Shown: positions 10,756-26,150 of the stretch, one piece after another
How positions within the stretch are numbered: the first letter of the stretch is position 1
Layout of the letters: every line of letters begins with the position of its first letter
From: Labia minor
Taxonomy: Eukaryota > Arthropoda > Insecta > Dermaptera > Spongiphoridae
DNA length: 64,000 bases
Reading direction: 5' to 3'
NCBI GenBank assembly: GCA_963082975.1
Contig: OY720344.1
Location: forward strand, 30,849,172 to 30,913,171
Notes under the pieces: model-generated
Database searches by the model: none
Told to the model about the DNA's origin: nothing
What the model saw: the letters and a program-made list of their open reading frames with translations, nothing else
Translations under genes and position numbers: made by a program

Positions 10756-13700
10756 TTAGGGCAGGGTGCGTTTAACTCCAACGGATGCAGCCTGTTGCGC
10801 TCTGGCCTCCCATTGCTCTTTCATTGCTTGAATTCGTTTCACCCTTGAGGCAACCGATACTGGGGAAGAAGATGATTCACCAATTTCGTTTCCAGAAGTT
10901 GAAGAAGCTATCGGCGTCGAGGGTCTCTCAGCATAATTACTTGAAGTTTCCACAGGTTCTAACGGTGTCCCGTTGCTTAATTTTTTTTCTCTTGGCAATA
11001 TCTCAGCTTCCTCTTCATTCTCTTTATCACTATCTCGAGACTTGCTTCCAGTATTAGATGAAGCAGCAATGGCGGCAGCAGTCGCAGCTGCTACAGCTTC
11101 ACATTCTGAATCTTTTAATTTAAGAGATCGTCTAGCAAATACTTTCATAAGTTCTGGTTCCTCATCTGGTCCAATACTTCCGCCTCTTGGCAAAGATCTT
11201 TTTCGAGATATCGAAGAACTATCATCAACATCATTCTCACTTTCATTATTTGTGCGACTAGGTTTTCTTCTTAAAACAACTATATTAGTATCTTCCTGCT
11301 CTTTTTTCGGAGTTAGAGTTTGTTGTTGCAGTTGTTGTTGTTGTGTTTGTTGTTGTTCATCCCGAGCAAGCAACGATCTTCTTCGTAAAAACAAATTTTC
11401 TTCAGAATTACGATCTGGTATTTCTTTAAATGAAAATTTACGAGCTGTTTGTGTTACTTTACTAGATTCTTTCTTTGTCTCTTTATCGTCTTTAATTTCA
11501 TCTTTCCTAATGATTGTTATCATTTTTTCTTTTGTTTTTTCTTCATCTTTAAATAGAGAATTTGTTACAATTTTATTTACTTTTAAAGATTTCTCCAATT
11601 CTTTTTCTTCTGCTTCTTTTTCAAGCATTCTTCTCTCTTTAAATTTTTCAGCAAGAGTTAAACCTCCAGCTCGTTTTATTGATTCATCTTTATTTATGAA
11701 CATTTTTTCTTCAATTTCACTTTCTTTTTCAGAAATTTTCCTTTCTCGTTTTTTCTCAGAAAGAGATAAATTTTCATATCGTTTAGTTAAAACTTCCAGA
11801 GGTTTCTTATCTTCTTTTTGATGAGATATGACTTCAATAGATTTATCTTCAGATTCTGTTTCTTTTTCTGACATTCTACGTTCTTTAAATTTTTCTGCTA
11901 ATGTTATACCCTCATATCGTTTATTAATTGATTCAATCTTTTTCTCTTCTTTAATTTGAGTGGGTTTTTCCTTCAACTTTTCTTCATTTTCTGTTTCTTT
12001 TTCGATTACACGCCTTTCTTTCAATTTCTCAAAAATATGATTTTCATTAAGTTTATTTAAAGGCTCGACAGATTTTTTATCTTTTTCTTCAATTTCTATT
12101 TCTTTTTCTGTGTTTCTAGGATCTTTGAATTTTTCTGCATTATTATAATTTTCGAAAACGCCTGTCTTTTTGATTAAAGAATCAGTAAGCGCTCTTTTCA
12201 TTGGGATTTTTTCATTTTTATTAACTTGCTTATTACTCTCATTATTTATTTCTTCTGAAATATTTTCTGATAATTTGCGATCTTTTAAAATTATATTTTC
12301 ATAAGAATGAGGTCTTTTGGTTTGGAGAGGTTCAATGTTTGGTTTTTTAAGTGGTTTTGAAGGAGTTGATCCAATTGGAACAATCGTGAAATTTCGTTGA
12401 TTCATTTTAACTTTATTTTCTTCATTTCCGGGTGTAACAGGCGATGATGTCCCATTAGAAGTTATAGTAGAAAGAACAACATTCACTAATGGCTTTGAAT
12501 CAACAGGATTCAGTTGCACTCGAAGAAATTCAGGAATATTTGCATTAGATTCAGGTACAGATCGACGGTGACTTGCTCGTGGAGTAACCTGTTCTAATGA
12601 ATCTTCTTGGCTATCCATAATAATTTCTTCATTAGCTTGCTCAGTCTCGCTTGTAATTTGAGTGACACTTATATGTTGACCAACACTTTCTGAAGAAATT
12701 GCTTTTGATGGGGAAGAGTTAAGATCTGGAGATCCCCTTAAACTATTGATACTATCCAAGCTTGCTGATTTTTTAACAGGGGAAACAGCTTCATTTCGAG
12801 CTTGAACTTTACTGCAGGGACTTGAATGATTTGACGCTGTGGAATTTTTGGTGAAAAAACGAGTGATTTCTGAATTATTAGTTGGAGAAGAGGGAGCTTG
12901 TTGATCATGTTGCACAAGCTGAGACTTCTGATGGGAAACTGACATTTCTTCGCCACGAAAACTTCGTGATTTGTTTAAATGTCGACGAACTTCGTTTATT
13001 TCAACATCATCCATCGGGGTATGAACAAGTGAGGTAAATTCGCGATCTCTATTTTCCAAGTTCATTAATGATGCAGGCCAAGTAGGTTTTGGAGGTGAAG
13101 GAGGAAGCGGAGGAGAAGAAGAAATTTGATGTCTTTTTGCTGTTAATTCTGGACTTGGGGGTAGTTGAATGGGTTCAATACGTTGTCTTAGACTAGCGGA
13201 GTTTCGAGTTTGAATTGACTTTCCTTTTTCTAATCGTTGAAATTTTTCAAGAAAGTCACTTTCATTTTTTTCTTGGTCCATAATTATATTTTCTTTGGAG
13301 ATTCTTGACTTTTTGCCGCTATGACGAGAAAGAAAACGGCCAAAGAAATTGGTAGAAGAACTGTTCCCATTTTCTGTAGTTTGTGATTGAGCTACATTGC
13401 TATGTGAACGTGGAAGAGATGTGCTTGCAGCCATTGCAGTACTTAGTGCGAGTCCAGGAGGTAAAGATGCTGATCGAAGTTGAACATCCGCCGGTACGAC
13501 AAGTGAAGCAGATTTAATACCGCTTACAGTTTCTGTAAAAAAAAGGAAGCCATGCAAGGCGTTAGGACAAGCAACAAGCCACATTAAGACAGGACAAGTA
13601 ACGTTAAATTGTTTGTTAGTAAGCAAAATCAAATATTATAAACAGGCATTATGAAAAGTAAATTCAATTTTTTCCAATTTTTTTTCTTTTTTTTTGAAAA

Positions 13701-13904: not shown

Positions 13905-16218
13905 ATGTACCAAAAATTATTTGGTAAAATAATACTATAAATAAAATATATAGTATAAAAATATGTGAAGAAAAAAAATTACTTGTTGGACTCGATGTCG
14001 TTGTGGTTTTCCGTGGGTACGTTTTGGCCGAACTGCCATTTTATGCCGAGCTGCAGAATGACTGAGAGGTGTTCCCGATACGCCAATGGCTGCAAGATCA
14101 GCATTACTGATGGTGCTGTTGGCGTTGCCATCAAGAAGAGAGTTTAAAGTAGAGGAAATATTCCCATCAACAGTCATTGATGGAGAAGAAACCTGAGGTA
14201 GCGCTGATAAAGAGGCTTTAGATGATCCAAAGGAATCCTTCAAACAAAAGAAATTATAATAATTAAGAATTGTTTAACATTTTTCTTATATACGACATAT
14301 TTATGATTATGATATTTATTTTATGATGATATTAAATATTTAAATTAAAAAAATAATATTAATTAAATAAATATTTAGGTATATTTTTAATGGAAAATTT
14401 TTAAAATTCTCATTAAAATTTCGTTAAAGAAATTTTGAGTATTTTCTCTTTCTCTCTCTATATATATATATAATATATAGTTAAAAGAGCAGTCGGTCGT
14501 AAGTTTAAAACAAGTATACTTTAAGAATTGGGATATTGTTTTAAGAATTTGTGTCTGTGTCAGGGTATTTTAATAAATTTACTTGACCTAATATATTATG
14601 AATATCATTCATACCACTATTCTTTTCTTATAATTATTATATATTTGTATTGTAGTATTAAATCATTTATCGAAATATGTTAATGTATAAAGAAATTATT
14701 TATAAACCATAATAGGAAATAATTTTTGTTATGAAAGTTTTAATAAAAATGTATACACAAAACTCCGATGCCAACCTCAGTTCAGAGAACCTGTCCATAT
14801 ATGTTCAATAATAAAGCTAAAACTAATATTAATTCAAGCAATTCATAGAATTATTAAAATATTTAAATATAATTTATTTTAAAATTTAACATTTTAAATA
14901 ATTAAATCATGTTTATTCAATGTTTTATATGAGAGATTATTCTCTAAAGTATGGTAAATGAGAATTAAAATTAAAAAAAATGATTGTACAATATATATAC
15001 TAATAATAATAATATTGATATTAATAATAATACAATAATGATATTCATATAAATATAATGTTTCCTCAAGCTCCCTTGAATCATCGTAATGTTTTGATGA
15101 AGAAATTTATCGATAAATGTAATAAATCACTTTAATTATGAAAAAACTAATTAAAATAAAGGAGGTTTATACGAGATGTGTTCGAAAAGGTAACTTTTCA
15201 AATTTCGTGGGCAAAGTACTTTCGATTATCGATTTTTAACATAACGCGCCGTTTGCGAGAAGCAATACGAAGAAAACGTCCAGAATTGTGGAAAAACAAT
15301 TCATGGCTTTTGCATCACGATAATGCCCCTGCTCACTCATCTTTGCTTGTAAGAGATTTTTTGGCCAAAAACAACACCACAATCATGTCTCAGCCACCAT
15401 ATTCACCGCATTTGGCCTCATGTGCATTTTTCTTGTTCCCAAAACTAAAGAGATCTTTGAAAGGACGGAGATTTGCAACGATTGAGGAGATAAAGACACA
15501 TCGCTGGAAGAGCTCAAGGCTATACCGAAAAATGCTTATGAGAAGTGCTTTGAGGATTGGAAAAAACATAAATATTGATAAATAAATAAATATTTTTTCT
15601 TAAAAATACAAAGTCACCTTACTTTTCAAACACACCTCGTATATTAGATTAGATCGATTCTTTCCCTCAAAAACTTCGAATATTTCATAGAAACATGGAT
15701 AATTTGTGAGTTTAAAAAGACATAATTTTATATACTTATATAATATATTTAGTATTATATATATATATATATATAAGTATTGTTTCAAATATTTATATAA
15801 TTCTCTAACCAGGGCCGGTTCTAGGGTTTTGAGTGCTTCGACCAAAACAAAATTTGGGGCCCCGGGCAGTCCGTCTTGCCCGCCCTTTTATCCGGCGGTG
15901 TCTCTAACAAACATCTTTTTAATGGATTTAATATTTAAATAAAATTAGAATGTTCTTGTGGTCACTCTTCCCTAATTTGAAATCTCTCTCATAGTCACAT
16001 AATAATTAACATTAATAAAATTATTATAAATGCTCTTTATTTTACCATAATGATCACATAAAAAAGACAGTAATTTTTTTTACTAAAATAGTGTAAAATA
16101 TAAATTTATATTTATATGACTACTAGTATATAAGTAATCTTACTTCATCCATTTCCGAGCTGCCCATACTAAGAAGAGAACCATCGCTGCAAGTGCTGTG
16201 TGATTTGGCAACACCATC
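10756..16218 (-). CDS. CRACD/KIAA1211-like actin capping regulator (DUF4592-type)
   Basis: Exons on the minus strand: 16218-16144, 14237-13983, 13830-13755, 13532-10756 (stop TAA 10758-10756). Phases agree (0, 0, 1), giving 1060 residues before any 5' exon. The identifying segment, residues ~83-107 in the second exon, reads LSHSAARHKMAVRPK... and matches the conserved SAAKHKLAVKPKK block near the N-terminus of vertebrate CRACD, a cytosolic protein that binds and inhibits capping protein and so promotes actin polymerisation. The first exon is Ser-rich (STCSDGSLLSMGSSEMDE). The last exon is mostly disordered: Pro-rich PPLPPSPPKP, five charged repeats (see 11600-12170), a glutamine tract, and near the C-terminus ELMKVFARRSLKLKD and KRIQAMKEQWEARAQQ. 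The reading upstream of 13532 (MILLTNKQ...) is intronic. Function is inferred from homology, and the start lies upstream. Introns hold a mariner, an hAT-type element and a LINE scrap. Confidence 0.8.
11600..12170 (-). repeat. Five degenerate coding repeats in the CRACD-like exon
   Basis: Within the last exon the protein repeats a charged module with core LAEKFKERRMSEKE about every 36-50 residues. The cores read, in order: NAEKFKDPRNTEKE, FEKLKERRVIEKE, LAEKFKERRMSEKE, LSEKKRERKISEKE and LAEKFKERRMLEKE. Each is followed by an acidic/lysine spacer, and repeats 2 to 4 by an INKRYEG/LTKRYEN/IKRAGG-like linker. Repeats 3 and 5 are the most alike. They are expected to be helical. This looks like local tandem expansion. 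Confidence 0.8.
15170..15641 (+). mobile_element. Internally deleted mariner with TIRs
   Basis: About 470 bp in an intron of the CRACD-like gene. Inverted ends are CGAGATGTGTTCGAAAAGG on the left and the complement of CGAGGTGTGTTTGAAAAG on the right, each flanked by TATA, consistent with TA duplication. A plus-strand frame (15178-15585) preserves the transposase C-terminal part: HHDNAPAHSS (second catalytic Asp) and PPYSPHLASCAFFLFPKLK. In the latter the expected third Asp (CDFFLF) is Ala. The N-terminal DNA-binding and first catalytic Asp regions are deleted, so it is inactive but could be mobilised in trans. Confidence 0.9.
15810..15900. mobile_element. Very short hAT-type element (91 bp) with perfect TSD
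   Basis: Begins CAGGGCCGGTTCTAGGG and ends TATCCGGCGGTG, flanked on both sides by the identical octamer tctctaac (15802-15809 and 15901-15908). GC-rich interior (GGGGCCCCGGGC). The short ends (CAGGGCCGG / CCGGCGGTG) are imperfect inverted repeats. An exact 8-bp duplication is diagnostic of hAT-class insertion. Confidence 0.8.
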
Positions 16219-16311: not shown

Positions 16312-17049
16312 TAATAATAATTTTATATTATATTATATATCTATCTTATCTTATATATTATAATATTTTTGGAATAAAATAAAAGTTCAATATTAAATGA
16401 GGAATATCTTCATTCAGGCATAATAGATAACATATTACAATATATAAAATAAAAATAAATAATAATAAGGATTGAGAAATTCATTCTTCTCTTTTAAGAG
16501 ACAGGATAGATGAGATTTCAAAAAAATTATAATTTATAAATGATTGGCCAATGATAATAATATAATATACGAAAGTAACTGTAAATTTAACCCCCTTAAT
16601 AAAATTTATATAATTAATGTATACTTTCTAAGCTCAAGATGAATAACTAAAAATAAAACCAAAATAAAAAATATAAATAAATCCAATTTAATAATATAAT
16701 ATAACAATAATAATAATATAACCTCATTTGGTAATTATATTATTTTGGACTACACTACTATTTGTAACAATTTATAATAATATTCTCACTAATATTTAAG
16801 TAGGTTCTGTCTCGTTGTTGATTTTAGTTAAATTAATAATCTTTTATATTGACCTTCATCTTAAGTGTTGTCTAAACTTTTGATTATAAATAATGATTAT
16901 GTCATTATTATGTAAAATTTTAAAACATTTTTCTATTGAATAATGTAATATTTACAAATGTGAATATTTAAATTTGATAAGAAAGTGTTAATTAATAATA
17001 CAGATTATTTATCGTTTTAAACCATAAAAACAAATCTTATCTTAATTCA

Positions 17050-17600
17050 ATTATTTTAGAAGATTTTATTATTATAAATATATCTATCTCTGTGGCTATA
17101 CGGAACTCGAAAGTTCTTGGCCGCAGCAACCACACCCCTCCAAGTATTCCTATTCTGAGCCACAACCCTCCAGTCCCTATCTTCTTCCATCTCTCTTCTC
17201 CCATTCTAGCCACTTGTCTTGCCCACCGCAGCCTTCTTGATTTTATAATTCTAACTATATCTGGAGATTCATAGAGGTTATGCAATTCCTCGTTCCTGGT
17301 GACCTCATCTTTCTTTGGCCCATAAATGCTTCGCAGAATTCTATTCTCAAATACTCTAAATTAACTCTCGTCACCTAAAGTCATAGACCATGCCTCACAC
17401 CCATATAATACAACCGGTAAAATAATTGTTTGATATAATTTAATTTTTATCCTCTTTGATAATAATTTTGACGCCATAAGCCCCTTTATTGCATGATTAC
17501 AGGCGTTTCCCGATTGAAACCTCTCTTTAAACTCATCTCGAATATTATTATCTTTCGTTATCACAGAACCTAAATATTTAAATTTTTCTAAATTTTCAAA
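17050..17600 (-). pseudogene. Non-LTR retrotransposon RT C-terminus, copy 1
   Basis: The minus strand reads VITKDNNIRDEFKERFQSG..., KLYQTIILPVVLYGCEAW, a stop, then RILRSIYGPKKDEVTRNEE and LYESPDIVRIIKSRRLRW. This is the familiar end of arthropod non-LTR reverse transcriptases (thumb region VVLYGCEAW, then RRLRW...RMGE). Frames are broken by a stop and a truncated GRP-rich part. Same strand as the CRACD-like gene and inside its putative first intron. Related copies at 20920-21215 and 46550-46890. Confidence 0.85.
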
Positions 17601-17690
17601 TTCTATTTATTATTATGAATAGGAGTAAAATATTATATTTTGATAAATATAATGTCAAGGAAAAATTAATTGAGAATGGTAACAATTTAC

Positions 17691-20400: not shown

Positions 20401-20919
20401 TGAAGAAAAGAGTAATAGAGTAGTTTTTTCTTATTAATAACTAGAGAAATCTAAACTCGTTTTAGTCATTGCATTTATTTTGAAATTATATTAATTAGTA
20501 TTATTAAATTGTTGAACTCGTCCTCAAGTTCGACGAACCATGACTATAGCCAATGTCTCGATCAATAAAAAAACTTCTATATTGCTACAAAAACTTTAAT
20601 TCAACTCTTACTGAATAATTTATTAAAGAAAAGAGAATTAGTTTTTTATTTTTTGTAAATAAAAAAAAAAAAAATAAAAGAATTTCTTTTAATTTCATTA
20701 AATTTTGTATTTTAAATTAAAATTGTAACTTTAATAATTTTTTGAATAGGAAATAATGTATATATATAAATTTTTACTTTATTATTCATTTTATATGTAG
20801 CCAAATTGTATAATTTTTTAACTAGCAATATAAAAAAATAATTTTTTAAGAGAGATGAGATAAATTTCAACAGGTAAATATCTACATCGAATTTCTTAGT
20901 TTTTAAATTAAATAAAGTA

Positions 20920-21215
20920 TAGCAACCACACCCCTCCAAGTATTCCTATTCTGAGCCACAACCTTCCAGTCCCTCTCCTCACCCATCTCTTTCACGTTCC
21001 TTCCCACATTATCAACCCACATTATCCAAGGACACCTTGGACTTCCAAGTAGACGTTTCCCACTCGGTCTCCCTGCCAATATATTTTTCGCCATTCTATC
21101 TTCTCCCATTCTAACCACGTGCCTCTTCTTGATTTTATATCTAACTATATCTGGAGATGCATAGAGGTCATGCAATTCCTCGTTATGCAGCCTCCGCCAA
21201 GAATAAATATATAGG
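20920..21215 (-). pseudogene. Non-LTR retrotransposon RT C-terminus, copy 2
   Basis: The minus strand reads NEELHDLYASPDIV, then RHVVRMGEDRMAKNILAG, RPSGKRLLGSPRCPW and DWKVVAQNRNTWRGVVA. It is the same end region as 17050-17600 and supplies the GRP...GRPR part missing there. The shared 3' string CTTGGAGGGGTGTGGTTGCT shows they belong to one family. Truncated, with a small deletion after YASPDIV. Confidence 0.85.
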
Positions 21216-22123
21216 TACTAATTAAATGGATTTAGTTATAATATATTCCAGTAATTGGATTTTAATAAAATTCATTTAATTGTAATTAATATCAAGTAAA
21301 ACTTAAATAAATATGAAATAATATTCTGGGATATATGAGAAAAGAGAAAAGCTTATTAAATTATATATAATAAACTTGAAATGTGGATATTTTTTCATTT
21401 GTATAATATATCTCAACTCCTTTTGATAAATTTTAAAATACTTCAAATGTTAATAAATCAGAGATTGAAACATAATAAATAATTAATACTATCTTATCAG
21501 AATTTTTTATTTATTTATTATTCTAATACACATTTATATAAATTTATATGTATTAATATATAATTAATTATGCTTTTTAAAAAATGTATATAAATCGAGT
21601 TTCAATCAAGGTTGTTTTTCATCTTTGTTAGAATCAAATATTTAAAATTCTAACTGTAATTAAAAATAAAGGAAATCTTTATTTGAATATCACCGACTCT
21701 TTCAACTGGAATCCCATCTCAAAATCGCTACAGGCAGTTGATCTACACATCTATCTATCTATCTATATATATATATATATTTATTTATTTATACGAATAA
21801 CTGTCCAGGCAGACCGAGAACACGGCCACCATTGTCCTATTCTTCATTCAAGAATATATTCTCATCGCATCTTAACATCTTAATCAGGTATTATATTATT
21901 AGCAGAAGCTTTATTCCATAAAGAATAAAGTTAAATAAATTTTTTCAAATAGGCTCAAATCTCATTAGCATTTATAAATTCTGTTTTTTTTAATAGTCCG
22001 GATGATATACAAAACCAACAAAATATGTAATTAAGGGAATGAAATGAATCATAAATCAAATACTATTCTATTCTAAAAGATATATATATATATATATATA
22101 TTTAATTGCAATAGTTAGGATAA
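21216..22123. other. AT-rich sequence with microsatellites
   Basis: Contains a (CTAT)n/(TA)n tract at about 21750-21790 and a (TA)n run at 22080-22101 just before the hAT-type element. A GC-richer patch at 21800-21840 (CAGGCAGACCGAGAACACGG) has no assignable identity. Confidence 0.5.
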
Positions 22124-23689: not shown

Positions 23690-24835
23690 AAGAATTAAAA
23701 TTAATATAAATAATTAAAAAAAAGACTAATTTAAAATATTATAGATTTTAATTTTTCTGAAGTTTAATTTTCCCTTGAAGCTTATTTTATAAATGTTATT
23801 ATATTAAAAATATCTTTCTAATAAAATCATTGAAATATTAATCTTATAAGCAATAACTCGATATTCTTATTCAATTTTTTATCTAATTTGGAAAATTTTG
23901 AGGAAAAAAAAATTATTAAATTTAACAAAGGAAACATTAAGGAAAGTAAAAATGAGAGAAAAAAAATTGATAATAAGAATGGATAGATTGCTTAAATGTT
24001 TTATTTTTTCTTTTGAATGTTAAAGATCATTTAATTGTTTATTTTTATTCTACTTTTGTTTTTGTTGTTTTGTTTTTTTATAATAACAATTTTTCCTTTA
24101 AAAAAAGATACATTTGTCTTTTAGCCTCTGAATGACACAATAGATGCTTTCAGAAAAAACGAAAAATACGAAGAAATCTCCGCTCTCCAGGGCACAGCTA
24201 GGTCACTCGGTAAAAGCAAACATTGAATAACGATGCCACCGATAAATCCAATACGAATTGTAATCAAGAAATACTTTTTATCCAATGAAAACTTTTAAGT
24301 CCGTAATGGGAAATAAATAATTTTCAATACCATAAAAATAGATTTTGTATTTTTCTTTTCTTTATTTTTCTTTCCAATATAATAATAGTGAAATTAATAA
24401 ACAAAAATAGTATTTTCGTTGTCTAAATGAAAATTTAATCATTTTCAATGGATATTTATTGTATTTATTTGGGTAAAAGAAATGTTAATTTCTTTATCTT
24501 AATTTTTAAAATATAAAAATATTTAAGAAAAACATAATATTCAATATTATTTAAAGACTTATATATACTATATAATTTTCTTTATATGTATAATTTATTT
24601 ATTAAAATTTGATTTGAAAATAAAGCAAAAATGAATTTAAGTTCAAAATAAAATTAAAAATATTTATTTTAATAATTAATAATATTTTATAATTTAAATA
24701 TTATTTCTTTTATTTAAGAGAAATTGAATTTCAATAAATTTACTAATGTATGTAATAAATCCATAGTTTTTAAGACATTTTTTTATTTGTGTTCCTTTAA
24801 ATTAATATGAAATTTTTTCATAAATATTTTCATTC
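22446..24835. other. AT-rich non-coding, scattered GC-richer patches
   Basis: Patches at 23000-23200, 23545-23620 and 24120-24260 (for example CTCCAGGGCACAGCTAGG) stand out from the A/T background. They lack open frames or terminal repeats and could be conserved non-coding or regulatory sequence. A (TA)n run lies at about 23657-23684. Confidence 0.35.
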
Positions 24836-25203
24836 ATTTATTTTAATTATCAGTTAATATTTATTTTATTAATTAGTTGTCTCTCTATAATTGTTTTCAG
24901 TGATGTAAATCTACTTTATATAAAAAGGAAAGAATTGTATTTTTAGTTGACATGGTTGTCATAGTTACGATATAACATATTGTAATATAGAATGTTTTTG
25001 TTAATAAAAAAACATTCTATATTAATAATATATTAATAAAAAAACATTCTATATTACAATATGTTATATCGTAACTATGACAACCATGTCAACTAAAAAT
25101 ACAATTCTTTCCTTTTTATATAAAGTAGATTTACATCACTGAAAACAATTATAGAGAGACAACTAATTAATAAAATAAATATTAACTGATAATTAAAATA
25201 AAT
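24836..25203. repeat. Perfect 164-bp inverted repeat with 40-bp spacer
   Basis: The left arm 24836-24999 and right arm 25040-25203 are exact reverse complements by eye over their whole length. The transcript of either strand would form a 164-bp hairpin. The spacer itself begins with another copy of the arm tip (AAAAAACATTCTATATTA at about 25007-25024). No terminal motifs, target duplication or coding sequence. Could be a recent inverted duplication, a hairpin-RNA source or an assembly artefact. Confidence 0.95.
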
Positions 25204-26150
25204 AATTAAAATAAATAAATAAATAATAAATTAATTAGGTTAAATAAGAAAGGGAAAAATATAGTTTATCCATTGATATTAAAATTATTTGATTATTATT
25301 TATATATCTTAATTATATGTTTTTTTGATGGATGTAGCAACGCAGGCCGGGTAAATATATAAAAAAATATAAATATGAATCTAATAAAAATATATTATAA
25401 ATATTCTATATAATATATTATAGGTATTACAATTTAAGTAAATTTTTTTTCGACCATGGTAAAGTAAAACTGTTTCTCATATGAATGAATGTATTTGAAA
25501 TGGTAATTGTTTTTATAAAAGAACAAACTCAACTGGAACACAATCCATTAGAATAATATTTAATGCATATTTATTATCTGATGGTAATAGAACACTATTT
25601 AAATAAGAAATATGCGGAAATGGGGGAGGATAAAACAAACAAATTTATAATGTAGTTTTTTTGTTGATAAAAACTGATTTTTATCTTTATCATTGATTTT
25701 TTTTTAAATTTTTTAGTAAATTATTTTTATTTATACTCATTACGTTTCATAATTAAGTTATTTTTTTTAAAATACCCTAAAATTTATTATTAAAATATAT
25801 TCATTAATAAAAATGATCTCATATAAATTTCATTTATAAAAAATATGAAAAATGAATTATGTTATGTCGTTATATAAAGGTTTTAAAATTTTTTTATACA
25901 AAATATATACGAATATTTATTGATACACCATTAATAAATAATAATTACCTGATATCATAGTTTTTTTTTTAATAAATAAAAATCATGTGGAACCATTTAA
26001 TAAATAGGAATATGAATCTGAACATTGAAGACAATATTGGACAATCCACATTTAGATGAAAAATTAAATAATAAAGATGACAATCCATTTTAACTTTTTT
26101 TCTAAATAAAAAATTTAGTTTTTAATTTTTAATACAAAATTGTTAATATT

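Follow-up and report, generated by a model that had tools for sequence, protein, structure and literature searches.

How does a long, perfect palindrome come into being, and does it serve a function once it exists? We addressed this question at one locus in the genome of Labia minor, within a window of 64,000 nt (the whole stretch of DNA that was analyzed). A preliminary description had proposed perfect 164-bp arms around a 40-bp spacer, and its coordinates proved exact: direct comparison of both arms gave complementarity at 164/164 positions, with zero mismatches (Table 1). At the base composition of the window, a chance match of 164 bp at one given site has a probability of about 7e-83. The palindrome is by far the longest inverted repeat among the window pairs listed (25 of 28 pairs; arms of at least 40, distance of at most 3000). 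When the window and 39 further loci of the same genome (L009-L047; 162,839 bases in total, mostly chosen for Helitron matches and not a random background) were scanned for perfect arms of at least 30 with a spacer of at most 500, the next longest perfect arm was 59 bp, in L013. Beyond the right arm a looser complement goes on, at 91% over 22 nt (24829-24850 versus 25202-25223). As DNA, a single strand is predicted to fold into one long stem at -172.5 kcal/mol.

Table 1. Features of the palindrome and of the Helitron copy around it, in window coordinates.
Feature	Position	Strand	Description
Helitron part to the left, in probable ancestral orientation	24634-25009	+	80-87% identity over the whole or nearly whole segment to L009, L010, L011, L012 and L017; colinear
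Left arm, probable source copy	24836-24999	+	164 bp; whole or partial arm in 24 of the 39 fetched loci, both orientations in 0
Short inner hairpin	24983-25024	+	17-bp perfect stem (24983-24999 with 25008-25024), 8-nt loop
Spacer	25000-25039	.	40 bp; with a 24-bp direct repeat extending into the right arm
Right arm, probable new reverse-complement copy of the left arm	25040-25203	-	164 bp; not found at the equivalent place in relatives
Exact 13-bp tandem duplication, outer end of right arm	25191-25216 (units 25191-25203 and 25204-25216)	.	
Helitron 3' tail, resumed	25226-25353	+	83-87% identity to L009, L011, L012, L019, L028 and L029; matches begin at 25226-25231

To place the palindrome in its genomic setting, we searched the genome (604 Mb, 71 contigs) with positions 24700-25350 as the query. 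The search yielded 82 match rows, with 40 of 413 candidates scored, and copy numbers given here are lower bounds; the 39 matching places that were fetched are L009-L047, and L048 is the window's own place. The palindrome lies inside a truncated member of a non-autonomous Helitron family that has copies dispersed through this genome. The preliminary description had recognized a real palindrome and suggested template switching, both of which are supported below, and had overlooked this location. Five aligned copies have about 1.1 kb in common, with insertions in L009, L012 and L021, and several family copies contain sub-terminal inverted repeats. In 14 of 28 match rows at the family 3' end, CTRR followed by T stood at the predicted point (13 CTAG, including the query L012, and one CTAA); among the other 14, CTAGT was shifted in two and not shown in 12. 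By eye, a 5' TC was present in L009, L012 (the query), L017, L026, L030, L034, L042 and L045, preceded by A in six of these eight copies; rows mixing in an internal inverted copy were left uncounted. GGCGT...ACGCC was also seen by eye near the 3' terminus in several copies. The family therefore has the 3' CTRR before a host T and the 5' TC beside a host A that define non-autonomous Helitrons. One paper (PMC4344730) lists TC, CTRR, A/T flanks, a 3' stem-loop and sub-terminal inverted repeats as features of insect Helitrons, and the family resembles the Hel-2-type non-autonomous elements described there, with 5'-TC, 3'-CTAG beside T, A/T flanks and sub-terminal inverted repeats.

Unlike Hel-2-type Helitrons (PMC4344730), the window copy lacks both ends and bears a palindrome. 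Its last bases are GGGTAAATATATA where relatives have GGGTACTGCTAG followed by T, and the terminal CTGCTAG followed by T of the relatives is missing. At the other end, the element's 5' third (positions 1-354 of L011:661-1735) matched the window only weakly and in AT-rich sequence, with no colinear match upstream. Because both Helitron ends are missing, the window copy is probably unable to spread.

Two of the fetched loci contain inverted repeats of their own. The 59-bp perfect inverted repeat of L013 (L013:611-892, 164-bp spacer) is located inside an insertion of about 660 bp that splits the Helitron copy, and this insertion is likely to be a nested terminal-inverted-repeat element. The Helitron copy at L031:1088-1391 has inverted repeats with perfect stretches of 40 and 42 bp, perhaps another homogenization by template switching; the scan omitted repeats more than 500 bp apart, so that other copies are not fairly compared with this one.

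The remainder of the window was surveyed for genes. Rfam families, scanned at gathering thresholds over 20-30 kb, and tRNAs, sought over the whole window, gave no match. Six window ORFs were compared with Pfam: one has a DEAD-box helicase match above the cut-off, two gave sub-threshold matches (DUF4592 and DDE_3), and three had no match. The DUF4592 ORF (13935-14273, minus strand; 25.2 bits versus a cut-off of 27) lies beside a 959-aa ORF (10756-13635, minus strand) that has no match in Pfam or among solved structures; the two are possibly exons of one gene, with the palindrome upstream of it. The DDE_3 match (15160-15585, plus strand; 25.7 bits versus 28.6) marks a decayed transposase fragment, which we take to be mariner-like. 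By eye, the ORFs at 17037-17606 and 20903-21217, both on the minus strand, look like the C-terminal end of a reverse transcriptase from a non-LTR retrotransposon; 17037-17360 and 20903-21217 had no match when scanned against Pfam.

Relatives of the window copy were used to reconstruct its ancestral state. None of the 24 arm-bearing loci, several of which hold the arm only in part, has it in both orientations, and self-comparison of L009-L028 (20 loci) revealed no such inverted arm. We also searched the genome with the region of L011 around the hinge, a poly(T)/poly(A) sequence (TTTTT/AAAA, 24995-25009; GTTTTTGTTAATAAAA in the window). In this search 54 match rows were listed, with 40 of 206 candidates scored, and 20 of the 54 traverse the hinge (query from at most 150 to at least 230), one of them being the query's own source. 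Among the 54 matches listed, adjacent copies of the arm in opposite orientations occur at the window locus only, where this query places them 17 bp apart. A palindrome common to the whole family was thus seen neither in the 24 arm-bearing loci of the 39 nor elsewhere among these 54 matches. Of 15 aligned relatives, ten pass the hinge (TTTGTTAATAAAA) into ordinary Helitron sequence; L028 also does, briefly; L014, L015, L023 and L027 change to other sequence after it; and none enters an inverted arm. Because the relatives are single-armed and none continues into an inverted arm, the left arm is most likely the ancestral one and the right arm the later copy, as judged from paralogous copies within one genome.

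The age of the duplication was estimated from substitutions specific to the window copy. Alignment columns with at least six loci each were used, counting only the first row per locus (two L019 rows and one L018 row were dropped). At six of the 163 columns, each covered by 9 to 22 loci, the arm has a letter other than that of the family majority. Both arms carry all six substitutions, and each of these letters is found in no more than two other loci. Between the two arms, 0/164 positions differ, corresponding to a divergence below 1.8% (95% upper bound). A duplication dating from the time of those substitutions would be expected to show about 12 differences between the arms, and the probability of finding none is about 6e-6 (equal rates assumed). 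Because the arms have six rare substitutions in common, yet no mutual differences, the duplication probably postdates the decay of the copy, and it would be much younger than the Helitron copy itself unless arm-to-arm conversion erased differences. The earlier suggestion that the structure is very recent agrees with these observations: 0/24 arm-bearing loci are two-armed, and the arms carry the copy's own substitutions and differ nowhere.

These substitutions also bear on other origins of the second arm. Insertion of a second Helitron head to head is ruled out, as the right arm bears the left arm's own six uncommon substitutions. Formation of the palindrome as an intermediate of rolling-circle Helitron movement would suit its position inside a Helitron copy, in a family with natural sub-terminal inverted repeats; we find this barely credible, as substitutions rare in other copies are present in both arms, so that the event was probably post-decay, and the breakpoints are internal, away from the TC and CTAG termini. 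An old palindrome could instead have been held perfect by gene conversion from arm to arm or by repeated inter-arm template switching. Both processes are proposed for long inverted repeats in a mitochondrial study (PMC6649704), and conversion would likewise yield six common uncommon substitutions and zero differences. We nevertheless regard such maintenance as unlikely: it needs an extra ongoing process, none of the 24 arm-bearing loci preserves the arm in both orientations, and the spacer retains its 24-bp direct repeat without a mismatch and a perfect inner stem of 17 bp, as would suit a young event.

We then asked what the right arm had replaced, by mapping the flanks onto single copies (18 measurable rows from 15 loci). 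The distance between the two switch points (25009 to about 25226) is 217 bp in the window and 172-218 bp in eight copies (L010, 196; L011, 218; L013, 209; L017, 180; L019, 205; L025, 205; L029, 190; L037, 199 or 172). Seven rows with distances of 415-934 bp (L009, L012, L014, L027, L035 and the second rows of L010 and L025) seem to come from copies that hold insertions. In L028 the distance is 57 bp, and in L039 the flanks lie on opposite strands. The flank distances in single copies indicate that about 200 bp of Helitron sequence was exchanged for 217 bp of inverted arm and spacer, a nearly length-neutral replacement.

Perfect inverted repeats are a recognized class of artefact. Nonetheless, an assembly or library artefact (a mirror read or an amplification chimera) is quite improbable here, because a simple read mirror would not be followed by the Helitron tail with about 200 bp of the element exchanged: beyond the 13-bp tandem duplication the flank is not mirrored, and the tail resumes in the same orientation. 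In addition, at 368 bp the structure is small relative to long reads, and the contig spans 126 Mb.

The spacer retains further traces of the event. Positions 25008-25024 read AAAAACATTCTATATTA and are perfectly complementary to 24983-24999. There is also a 24-bp direct repeat in a 32-base register (25001-25024 and 25033-25056), the second unit of which reaches into the right arm. A third copy of the arm tip had been noted in the spacer; it is present and longer than stated, comprising 17 nt inside the 24-bp direct repeat. The inner hairpin formed by this copy reads as the trace of a first, abortive snap-back, and the piece 24985-25025 folds with a 15-bp stem. At the hinge itself, a weak stem was predicted in six of seven relatives tested (-0.4 to -2.2 kcal/mol), and L019 folded none. 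We also considered a pre-existing quasi-palindrome corrected by template switching. This candidate was rejected: long quasi-palindrome scores at the hinge were no better than shuffles in six of the seven relatives and borderline in L016 (7 of 300), with a routine that reverts to a plain shuffle where the dinucleotide path fails.

A template switch is recognized when a nearby stretch has been inserted as its reverse complement and the ancestral sequence remains colinear to either side, which is the arrangement found in the window. We consider it highly probable that the palindrome arose by a local template switch, in replication or repair synthesis, within an old and probably immobile Helitron copy. 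A switch is supported by relatives that have one arm only, by Helitron sequence that is colinear on either flank, by a replacement of almost equal length, by uncommon substitutions present in both arms and by hinge stems in 6/7 relatives tested. The more specific proposal of repeated template switching gains support from the single-arm relatives, the identical arms and a spacer with an apparent short first snap-back. In such a scheme, synthesis proceeding from left to right would arrive at the hinge, where a weak hairpin is predicted in most of the relatives tested. The new 3' end, ...TTAATAAAA, would pair with the freshly made TTTTT, copy back about 17 nt and detach. After re-pairing, a second pass would copy back 164 nt or more, to 24836, and synthesis would then rejoin the original template about 200 bp farther downstream. 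A small slip at this step would have left the 13-bp tandem duplication, which is possibly the scar of the return switch. In four-point notation (PMC7954356), the order would be 3-2-1-4, giving one inverted repeat. The setting may be a fork or repair synthesis; we infer the direction of synthesis, the order of the two passes and the template, which may be the same nascent strand or another fork arm. The usual eukaryotic Okazaki fragment is about 165 nt, and the copied length is close to this size, which in a single case is only a thought.

Some observations count against a switch. The 8 bp between the snap-backs (25025-25032) are without a clear source, one of the seven hinges tested is stemless and another reaches only -0.4 kcal/mol, and the ancestor is reconstructed from paralogous copies of a single genome instead of from an allele or sister species. 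The copied length of at least 164 also exceeds 128, the longest 2->3 fragment of the great-ape gold-standard set (PMC7954356). According to the same study, copied lengths in that set have a median of 12 and a maximum of 128, and great-ape switches have AT-rich, poly(dA:dT) surroundings and mostly produce single inverted repeats. Our locus likewise combines an AT-rich, poly(dA:dT) setting with microhomology at the switch, features that are associated with such events without strictly defining them. Like the four-point template switches described in two reports (PMC7954356, PMC8794818), the event at this locus would comprise an adjacent reverse-complement insertion, an AT-rich/poly(dA:dT) switch site, a single perfect repeat and resumption of the template. 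Unlike the great-ape gold-standard switches (PMC7954356), it has a longer copy and apparently two passes at the hinge, and its ancestor is taken from repeat copies and not from a species alignment. Similarly, the inverted repeats of nematomorph mitochondrial genomes are perfect, with arms of at most 142 bp and a mean arm distance of 37 bp, and template switching is proposed for them; those 110 repeats lie in mitochondrial coding genes of four genomes, whereas ours is one nuclear case in a transposon fragment (PMC6649704). A narrow check of the literature found no report of a palindrome arising within a Helitron.

Whether the palindrome acts as a source of RNA was considered next. It could be a hairpin-RNA (hpRNA) or endo-siRNA locus kept by selection and silencing the Helitron family; more specifically, a newborn hairpin-RNA gene, in which one switch would have made a dead Helitron fragment into a perfect 164-bp source of double-stranded RNA, with siRNAs matching family copies. 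As in an hpRNA locus, the long inverted repeat is predicted to form double-stranded RNA: the strand folds as RNA into one stem at -239.4 kcal/mol (z -38). Of 144 arm 21-mers, 87 have an exact match in one or more of the 24 arm-bearing loci; 18 of these loci contain exact arm 21-mers and six contain none. An hpRNA with transposon arms in Drosophila simulans, hp-ODox2, is in print, and Drosophila hpRNA loci of this kind are inverted repeats of transposon sequence, as the palindrome is (PMC10317233). On the other side, any perfect or neutral palindrome in a repeat would score much alike, youth alone accounts for the zero mismatches, and the window copy is a fragment. We therefore give both the selected silencing locus and the newborn gene a very slim chance. 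The palindrome is most likely a neutral scar, and this is far more likely than a hairpin-RNA function.

Taken together, these findings describe a new, unusually long and legible case of a known kind of mutation. They offer a clean view of the birth of long perfect palindromes, in which siblings give the likely ancestor, the breakpoints are readable to a few bases, and an apparent aborted first pass is still visible in the sequence. The same process is proposed as a source of new RNA hairpins in one report (PMC8794818), and the stem at this locus, if transcribed, could feed RNA interference. Surveying repeat families systematically for aberrant copies of this sort would show how often the process acts in this genome and over what range of lengths.
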